A stretch of DNA of 64,000 nt from Blastococcus saxobsidens (GTDB taxonomy: Bacteria; Actinomycetota; Actinomycetes; Mycobacteriales; Geodermatophilaceae). The first letter of the stretch is position 1. Each line of letters begins with the position of its first letter. The notes under the pieces are model-generated. The model was not told the origin of the DNA, did no database searches, and was given only the letters and a program-made list of their open reading frames with translations. Below are positions 16,101-17,591 of this stretch, in pieces. Where the stretch lies: positions 1 to 64,000 of the forward strand of contig NZ_POQT01000006.1 in NCBI RefSeq assembly GCF_002938435.1, read 5' to 3'. Position numbers and translations under genes: made by a program.

Positions 16101-16204
16101 CGGCCCGGGAGAGCGGCCGCACGGTGCCGGGCACGGAGACCTCCGGGGGAGCAGGGCGAGGTGTACACGGGGAGGGAACCGGCACGGGCGGCGGAAGTGA
16201 GCGG

Positions 16205-16795
16205 TCAGCCCGTGCGGGTGAACAGCCACCGGGCGAAGGCGGCGTCCTGGTAGAGCTCGGTGCGCCACCGGACCGACAGCCGGAAGGAGCCCGGGGGGAC
16301 GACGAGCAGCGGGCTCGCGTCGGTGGCGGTGTCGTCGTCCAGCTGGTCGGAGTCCGGCGTCGGGCCGGGGGACTCCGGCAGCAGGAAGGCGCCGTCGTCA
16401 CCGGTGCCGTCCAGTGCCGCGCTGACGAAAGCCAGCCGCCCGCTGGGCACCGGGACCACGTCACCGCCCTGGTCGTCCGTGGCCGGGAAGGCCAGCGCGG
16501 CGTCCAGCGTGCCGCGGTAGTCCTCGGCGTCGACCTGGACGACGGCGACGCTGCCGTCGTCGGCGCGGAAGACCTCCAGCCAACCCTCGTCGCCGATCTC
16601 GGGGTCGGTGAGCACGAGGCCGGCGGTGCCGGGGCCCACCGCGACGGCGGTGAGCTCGTAGGTCAGCTGCGGTACCAGCGCCTCGTAGGCCTGCCCGGAC
16701 ATGCCGTGCCAGGACGGGAGGAGGTCTGCATCGAGGGCGAGGAACGGCTCGCCGTTGGTCCAGCAGCGACCCACGTAGGTCCACGCGACTGTCAT
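16205..16795 (-). CDS. Hypothetical protein, possibly Imm21-like
   Basis: 196 aa from the ATG at 16795, which has CAGGA upstream; an in-frame ATG at 16867 is a weaker alternative. Acidic and soluble. The order WTNGEPFLALDADLLPSWHG, then YEALVPQ, AVAVGPGTAGLVLTDPE and GRLAFVSAALDG resembles the layout of Imm21-type immunity proteins from polymorphic toxin systems. That likeness is by eye and weak. No toxin gene is next to it; if it is an immunity gene it is an orphan. It is the last gene before the dif-like site. Confidence 0.5.
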   Translation of the reverse strand: MTVAWTYVGRCWTNGEPFLALDADLLPSWHGMSGQAYEALVPQLTYELTAVAVGPGTAGLVLTDPEIGDEGWLEVFRADDGSVAVVQVDAEDYRGTLDAALAFPATDDQGGDVVPVPSGRLAFVSAALDGTGDDGAFLLPESPGPTPDSDQLDDDTATDASPLLVVPPGSFRLSVRWRTELYQDAAFARWLFTRTG

Positions 16796-16889
16796 GCGGT
16801 CATCCTGCAGGTCACGGGAACTGGGCGACGCCAGGCGACCGGTGCCGGCGTGATCCGAGGAGGGCACCGACGTAGCGCTCGTCCAGACG

Positions 16890-16917
16890 AGTTGACATAA
16901 CGTTGATTATCGGCGTC
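16890..16917 (-). other. dif: Chromosome dimer resolution site dif (predicted)
   Basis: 28 bp with the exact build of a XerC/XerD site. On the minus strand: arm GACGCCGATAA (XerC side), 6-bp centre TCAACG, arm TTATGTCAACT (XerD side). The XerD arm matches the E. coli arm at 9 of 11 positions, and the whole closely follows the actinobacterial dif as I remember it (CGCCGATAAT, two variable bases, ACATTATGTCAA). Genes on both sides run mainly toward it, as expected at a replication terminus. In 16796-17354 the only other structures seen are the GATCTTGAT repeats, a long palindrome and the lipoprotein promoter. Confidence 0.88.
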
Positions 16918-17149
16918 GTGGTCAGGCTTCGGGAAGGGGGTCATGATCTCGGGCTTCTGCGCGCCCCCCGGTCCGGCATCGTCGCGTGGACAGCCGGTGC
17001 AGTCCGAGTCGCGTAGCCGTCGTCGTCGACCGCGCCGGGCACCCGCCCACCCGCCCGCTCCCGGCTCTCCGTCGCCCCAGCGGCGTGGCTCGGCACGATC
17101 CGGGTCGCCCGACGACTCTCAGGGTCCCCGTCTCACTCCCCCGCATGTC

Positions 17150-17174
17150 GATCTTGATCCTTGATGATCTTGAT
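17150..17174. repeat. GATCTTGAT direct repeat
   Basis: GATCTTGAT at 17150-17158 and 17166-17174, with CCTTGAT between them. The unit spacing is 16 bp. It lies 230 bp from the dif-like site in DNA without genes; it could be a protein-binding site. Confidence 0.55.
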
Positions 17175-17259
17175 AGCGACGTACGTGCAGGACCGGATGT
17201 GCACCCGTCGAGCGCCGTTCGGCCGACAGGCGGCGCCAGGGACCCTCCTCCCCCTGTCT

Positions 17260-17310
17260 CGCTACACCCGTGCACTTACGTAACAGTGACGTAAGTGCAC
17301 GGGTGTAGCG
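17260..17310. repeat. Perfect inverted repeat with 22-bp arms
   Basis: Arms 17260-17281 and 17289-17310 are perfectly complementary around the 7-nt centre AACAGTG. The arms are less GC-rich inside (CTTACGT) than the neighbouring DNA. It lies 45 bp before the lipoprotein gene and 340 bp from dif. Confidence 0.9.
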
Positions 17311-17354: not shown

Positions 17355-17591
17355 ATGCAGATCCGACGACCGCTTGCCGCGCTGTTCGCCGCTCTTGCGC
17401 TCTTCGGAGGGGGCGCCACGATGACTGCGTGCCAAGCTGCAGGACAGGACCAGAACGACGGGTCGACCGACGACAGCGAGAACACCGGCGGGAGCGACCC
17501 GGGCAGCGAGGACCAGGGGAACCTGCCGGACAACAGCAACCCGGAGCAGGACCAGGACGACCTGGACGACGACACGACCGACCCGGACTGA
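17355..17591 (+). CDS. Small Asp-rich putative lipoprotein
   Basis: 78 aa. Positively charged start (MQIRRP), hydrophobic stretch to about residue 20, then MTAC, a weak lipobox with Cys26 as the possible lipidation site. The rest is almost entirely Asp, Glu, Gln, Asn, Gly and Ser, so it would be a disordered, strongly acidic surface tail. No family recognised. Supported by a leaderless promoter and an ordinary signal-peptide layout. Convergent with the zinc-finger gene 13 nt beyond. Confidence 0.65.
   Translation: MQIRRPLAALFAALALFGGGATMTACQAAGQDQNDGSTDDSENTGGSDPGSEDQGNLPDNSNPEQDQDDLDDDTTDPD

Follow-up and report, generated by a model that had tools for sequence, protein, structure and literature searches.

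Organization of the locus

The window, meaning the whole stretch of DNA that was analyzed, comprises the first 64 kb (64,000 nucleotides) of contig C6 (173,820 bp) of a draft genome of 86 contigs (4,523,459 bp). The sequence, uniqueness, position and conservation of the site described below, the strand polarity switch around it and the side bias of the palindrome beside it were determined by computation. The following features were recognized.

16145-16151, plus strand: last plus-strand GGGGGAG to the left of dif
16205-16867, minus strand: conserved hypothetical gene that reads away from dif, its start lying about 23 bp from the site; no Pfam match
16890-16917, minus strand: dif (28 bp), from sequence reading, genome search and degenerate-pattern search
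16890-16900, minus strand: XerD arm of dif, TTATGTCAACT
16901-16906, minus strand: center of dif, TCAACG
16907-16917, minus strand: XerC arm of dif, GACGCCGATAA
16931-16953, minus strand: box conserved at the genus level, with the sequence GAGATCATGACCCCCTTCC in the window, located 14-36 bp beyond the XerC arm at near-constant spacing
17129-17178, minus strand: box conserved at the genus level in which repeats of ATCAAGATC precede GGGGGAG, the closest polar site to dif on the XerC side
17136-17142, minus strand: first minus-strand GGGGGAG to the right of dif, bracketing the polarity switch together with 16145
17260-17310: 51-bp palindrome on the XerC side of dif, with 25-nt arms that are 96% complementary and 1 nt between them
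17277-17293, minus strand: core of the palindrome, CGTCACTGTTACG, a 17-bp match
17355-17591, plus strand: small gene, lipoprotein-like from a reading of its N-terminus, directed away from dif; no Pfam match

An earlier note on this DNA had the genes converging on dif from both sides. On average they do: based on a hand-picked gene list in which some ORF extents overlap, 10326 bp of coding sequence read toward dif and 4803 bp away from it on the left, and 11205 and 7230 bp, respectively, on the right (to 35.8 kb). The two genes that immediately flank the site (16205-16867 and 17355-17591), however, diverge. The decayed genes reported near dif were not recovered as a general feature, since four ORFs between 15.7 and 18.1 kb have matches in all three congeners at 58-90% identity; an ORF at 14.8-15.4 kb is matched in one of the three (G021). 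The gcv and proteasome neighbors that had been named are present, as gcvP and a Pup/proteasome cluster. An Rfam search of the region 15.5-20 kb gave no match at E values up to 1.

Identification of dif

Read on the minus strand, the 28 bp divide as first proposed into an 11-bp XerC arm, a 6-bp center and an 11-bp XerD arm. The suggested fit to actinobacterial dif is also good. In a count made by eye, 23 of the 28 positions (20 of 22 in the arms) are identical to the putative dif of Frankia alni as it appears in the accessible part of Kono et al. 2011 (PMC3025954). Judged from the same part of that paper, both sites are 28 bp long with an 11-6-11 arrangement, and they show only ordinary differences, in the center and at the ends of the arms (PMC3025954).

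A degenerate actinobacterial dif core, with up to three mismatches allowed, matched the 64-kb window once and without a mismatch (shuffle mean 0.02). In the whole genome the 28-mer is single, as had been predicted, with one copy at up to three mismatches and none for the reversed control. The XerC arm also contains the sequence GCCGATAA, which we take to be identical to the -10 consensus of sigma-28 (FliA/WhiG); no -35 partner was seen by eye and the occurrence is probably due to chance.

When up to two mismatches were allowed, the dif pattern was found exactly once in 39 of 40 genomes, the present one among them; the genome lacking a match (G034) is 86% complete. A second set, overlapping the first, had the pattern in 37 of 39 genomes (missing in G034 and G056). 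Across the order 183 of 199 genomes had it at no more than one mismatch, 11 with multiple matches, and class-wide it was present in 92 of 118 genomes. Each of the three single-contig congeners examined has dnaA at the start of its contig, and dif lies at 2,522,670 of 4,875,340 (G007), 1,994,455 of 4,297,415 (G021) and 1,833,693 of 3,701,696 (G017), a distance from dnaA of 51.7, 46.4 and 49.5% of the chromosome length, respectively. Since the present genome is a draft of 86 contigs with dif 16.9 kb from a contig end, the antipodal position is seen in the relatives and would extend to this genome by inference.

Second dif-like sites were observed on other contigs of six genomes (L189 to L194, on G161:C16, G193:C27, G096:C13, G184:C30, G152:C1 and G168:C15, respectively); these contigs are probably plasmids or islands. 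Contig G193:C27 has two dif-like sites in opposite orientation, 51 bp apart.

Strand polarity and the replication terminus

The GC skew is nearly flat, with no clear switch, in the window, in the remainder of the contig and in the sampled stretches of three relatives, and in these stretches it is too weak for placing the terminus. Strand polarity was examined in approximately 1.25 Mb from four genomes by comparing, for 6- to 8-mers found 60 times or more, the counts on the ter-ward and the other strand. The top 7-mer was GGGGGAG, with 452 ter-ward occurrences versus 36 on the other strand; for the six remaining orders of one A among six G, the ter-ward bias is at most about 2.3:1. On the contig carrying the window 73 of 75 GGGGGAG sites agree in direction, 11 of 11 to the left of dif being on the plus strand and 62 of 64 to the right on the minus strand. 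The best switch point falls within a 991-bp interval (16145-17136) with dif inside it. Relative to dif, the switch was located to -1071/+236 bp in G021, -2047/+217 bp in G007 and -876/+241 bp in G017, so that the interval brackets dif in all four genomes.

As a short G-rich motif with a strong ter-ward bias on both arms, GGGGGAG has the character of an AIMS or KOPS. The accessible text of PMC2830990, which cites Hendrickson and Lawrence 2006 for AIMS, presents (T/C)GGGGGAG as a leading-strand architecture-imparting sequence which located dif in Corynebacterium aurimucosum; because this motif has already been published, the GGGGGAG switch is a known kind of signal. The same octamers occur here on the ter-ward strand with a switch at dif, and compared with C. 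aurimucosum, as described in that text, no difference was found except that the genus is another one (PMC2830990).

Based on the single copy, the occurrence of one site per genome in relatives, the position opposite dnaA in congeners and the GGGGGAG switch, positions 16890-16917 are with high confidence the chromosome dimer-resolution site dif at the replication terminus, in agreement with the earlier note. It is most improbable that the 28-mer represents a mobile-element attachment copy of the IMEX type instead of a working chromosomal dif; several genomes of the order do have second dif-like sites on other contigs, but here the 28-mer is single in the genome, has a gene neighborhood common to three congeners and coincides with the polarity switch. 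Finding dif is routine in itself, yet it marks the terminus in a draft genome.

Candidate Xer and FtsK proteins

Two strong XerD-family genes were identified in the genome, with scores of 328.2 bits (C30) and 259.9 bits (C29) against TIGR02225; the first is narrowly and the second well below the cut-off of 329.6 bits, and the next of the 13 matches has 114 bits. One FtsK-gamma domain scores above its cut-off. Judged from these sequences, the dimer-resolution machinery appears to be encoded, with two XerD-family candidates and FtsK-gamma.

By analogy with known systems, XerC/XerD-like recombinases would bind the 11-bp arms of dif, and the two dif copies of a chromosome dimer would be recombined across the 6-bp center. 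FtsK, guided by the polar GGGGGAG sites that point to dif on both chromosome arms, would unite the two sites at the septum and activate recombination by the XerC/XerD-like proteins.

Conserved sequences on the XerC side

Column statistics on 23 loci of the genus (that of the window included), covering up to 200 bp on both sides of dif, revealed conserved positions on the XerC side; on the XerD side only three conserved columns were found, and they adjoin the XerD arm. Beyond 200 bp the alignment covered the XerC side. In 20 of the 23 loci a CCCCTYY box begins 22-23 bp beyond the XerC arm, and this box was also present in 12 of 33 loci of other genera in the family and in 2 of 47 loci of other families (background, 10 in 21,620 slots). 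Farther out, at about -225 to -258, a CAAGATC-like box together with a G-run (GGGG(A/G)G) was present in 18 of the 23 loci.

A palindrome beside dif

The palindrome at 17260-17310, of the form CGTCAC-N-GTGACG in its core, is located 343 bp from dif. Its single-strand fold has a predicted energy of -47 kcal/mol for one strand and -43 kcal/mol for the other (z about -9). A looser form of the pattern matches the genome only once, beside dif. Among the 23 genus loci, 21 have the palindrome at -350 to -404; in the other two it is found at -494 and -1376.

The order was represented by 103 oriented dif loci, a selection from several locus sets, 102 of which have enough flanking sequence on the XerC side. 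A slightly degenerate core was found within 1 kb on this side in 61 of the 102 loci, distributed over five families (49/55 in f1, 3/5 in f3, 2/4 in f4, 6/9 in f8 and 1/2 in f15). No such core was found within the same distance in the loci of f2 (10), f13 (4), f16 (8), f5 (2), f6, f7 and f9 (1 each). The XerD side has it within 1 kb in 10 of 99 loci, all of them f1. For the strict core the corresponding numbers are 41 of 98 loci (XerC side) and 10 of 98 (XerD side). The matS (MatP) consensus is GTGACRNYGTCAC; a matS pattern built on this consensus had no match in any of the 98 loci, with 1 kb searched on each side of dif, and the same result was obtained for all nine equally strict control palindromes, that is, matS and eight others.

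A search with the strict form, having A or T in the center, gave 86 sites in 61 of 150 genomes, compared with four sites for the reversed control. Of 75 placed sites, 50 are within 2 kb of dif or a dif-like site, 47 of them on the XerC side; the 50 include the site on the plasmid-size contig G152:C1. The other 11 sites (ten in f15, one in f16) were placed in a set of 14 genomes which, ten having been chosen for possessing a match, is not a fair sample; seven of these sites are on the XerC side, at a distance of 233-241 bp from dif. The total near dif or a dif-like site (up to 2 kb) is thus 57 of 86, with 54 on the XerC side, while the remaining 29 are farther from dif or on other contigs, some of them in drafts. 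In other orders the palindrome was present in none of 29 orientable dif loci (30 fetched), two of which have less than 500 bp of XerC side.

The distance between palindrome and dif is mostly about 50-850 bp, with a few up to 2 kb. No helical phasing relative to dif was detected in the genus (23 loci) or in all 57 loci of that test; the phasing group labelled f1 was selected by prefix and may hold one f15 locus. The variable distance without helical phasing argues against a rigid accessory complex.

Outside the core, the arms of the 55 f1 sites pair within sites (complementarity 0.555) beyond what is seen when arms are re-dealt between sites (0.400; maximum of 2000 shuffles, 0.457). This pairing allows a hairpin, a cruciform or the mutational correction of quasi-palindromes. 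The eight f8 sites have no clear outer-arm pairing, and the f3, f4 and f15 sites are too few for a comparison.

Additional palindromes were observed in several relatives. Genus loci with the dif center TGCACA (L006, L008, L011, L017, L019, L021 and L022) have extra palindromes on the XerD side, at about +264 to +693. Away from dif, two congeners (G022 and G010) carry long palindromes that are nearly identical to one another and combine the same core with extended arms (L185 at 3862, L186 at 806 and L187 at 4814); one of them is just past the end of a gene. An extra CGTCACCGTGACG palindrome in G026 (L188 at 5052) is located just past a gene which, from a reading of the ORF, is ParB-like, approximately 12 kb from dnaA. 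Inspection by eye of the gene neighbors of some of the palindromes away from dif gave no common candidate protein.

Plasmid-size replicons and a second palindrome

One of the six extra dif-like loci has the palindrome (L193); L189, L190, L191, L192 and L194 are without it. L193 is on the 191-kb contig G152:C1, probably a plasmid, where the palindrome is 49 bp from the dif-like site, start to start, on the XerC side. A further locus, L184, was identified as the Mycolicibacterium crocinum plasmid NZ_CP092363.2 (100% match over 1201 bases). NZ_CP092363.2 and G152:C1 each have two CGTCAC palindromes, 840 and 945 bp apart, respectively, and in the former the two flank a RelE/ParE-Phd toxin-antitoxin pair. 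On both replicons a second type of palindrome, with the Xer-arm form CATGGATAA-N6-TTATCCATG, is found near one of each pair.

Chromosomal forms of this second palindrome are close to TCATGSATAA-N6-TTATSCATGA and lie within about 1 kb of dif. They were found on the XerD side in all eight f16 loci (L176-L183) and in the only f9 locus (L003), and on the XerC side in 12 of 15 f15 loci (L174-L175, L230-L237, L239 and L240). A ninth f16 locus with a doubtful dif (L229) has an atypical second palindrome on the opposite side. The core of the second palindrome did not occur in about 1.19 Mb of background, which was taken from the genus of the window and does not represent f15 or f16. The second palindrome might be a further site for a tyrosine recombinase, or a XerD site.

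Possible role of the palindrome

The CGTCAC-N-GTGACG palindrome has a symmetric, conserved 13-bp core, is present in few copies per genome, prefers one side of dif and in some cases adjoins Xer-like sites of plasmids, which fits a site for a dedicated dimeric protein. We therefore infer that it is a candidate binding site of a dedicated dimeric terminus protein. Such a protein, once bound, would act at the terminus, either as an accessory or architectural factor of Xer recombination or as a terminus organizer.

Among the alternatives, the one that retains some weight, though we consider it unlikely, is that the palindrome is an operator or promoter element of the adjacent gene and shares an intergenic region with dif. 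In the window about 45 bp separate its end from the ATG of the lipoprotein-like gene, which three congeners and some other genera of the family also have. Across genera and families, however, the neighbors vary while palindrome and dif persist together. The other neighbors, named from a reading of their N-termini, are polyketide-cyclase-like, MarR/HxlR-like, MazF-like and others; in L115 the palindrome adjoins a gene other than that for the lipoprotein, and on the 191-kb contig it recurs next to a dif-like site.

A transcription terminator hairpin is still less probable. The high stability of the fold on both strands and the pairing of the f1 outer arms within sites would suit a terminator, as would the loci in which the palindrome follows the end of a gene. 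The two genes flanking it in the window, however, run away from it, so neither needs termination there. Nor would a terminator be expected to cluster at dif; moreover, the core sequence is conserved across five families, and outer-arm pairing is not clear in f8.

We give a similarly low probability to a replication fork barrier of the Tus/RTP kind, for which the terminus position and the few copies, mostly close to dif, could be cited, since the symmetric core has no polarity and 54 of the 57 sites near dif share a single side, forming no trap on both arms.

The binding site for a dimeric protein is the preferred reading of the palindrome, and it may be part of a larger arrangement. We give an even chance to a composite dif locus in much of the order, composed of the dif core and an XerC-side palindrome bound by a putative dimeric protein, together with the second palindrome (CATGSATAA-N6-TTATSCATG) in most of the f9, f15 and f16 loci seen, both palindromes being present on the two plasmid-size replicons. 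Its role would be in the dimer resolution of the chromosome and of some plasmids, or in organization of the terminus.

The new part of this work is the palindrome beside dif, with its strong enrichment on the XerC side across several families, one of which contains Mycolicibacterium. To our knowledge no dedicated terminus-binding protein is known in the latter family, and none was named among the literature matches listed, as far as their accessible text goes. Among the matches listed, in which subscription journals are thinly covered and texts are partly accessible, there was likewise no description of a CGTCAC-N-GTGACG palindrome beside dif. The core offers a 13-bp bait for a terminus-binding protein and a concrete way of looking for factors other than XerCD and FtsK at the actinobacterial terminus.

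Comparison with known terminus and Xer systems

If the composite reading were true, the locus would provide an actinobacterial functional counterpart to the accessory proteins of cer and psi or to MatP. In cer and psi the accessory DNA is on the XerC side. In the enterobacterial matS/MatP system a 13-bp site is repeated 23 times across 800 kb, according to the accessible part of PMC3330122. Both matS and the core described here are 13-bp palindromes tied to the terminus, but the half-sites of the latter are in the opposite order and its few copies adjoin dif.

The plasmid Xer sites cer and psi, as covered in the accessible text of PMC5357621, involve accessory sequences together with PepA, ArgR and ArcA. 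These sites and the locus described here, compared on the basis of the same text, have in common the conserved non-core DNA beside the Xer site. They differ in that cer and psi are plasmid sites, whereas here the core is the chromosomal dif and the distance to the palindrome is variable (PMC5357621). The nearest functional analogy to the palindrome would be the accessory DNA of cer and psi, as that text presents it.
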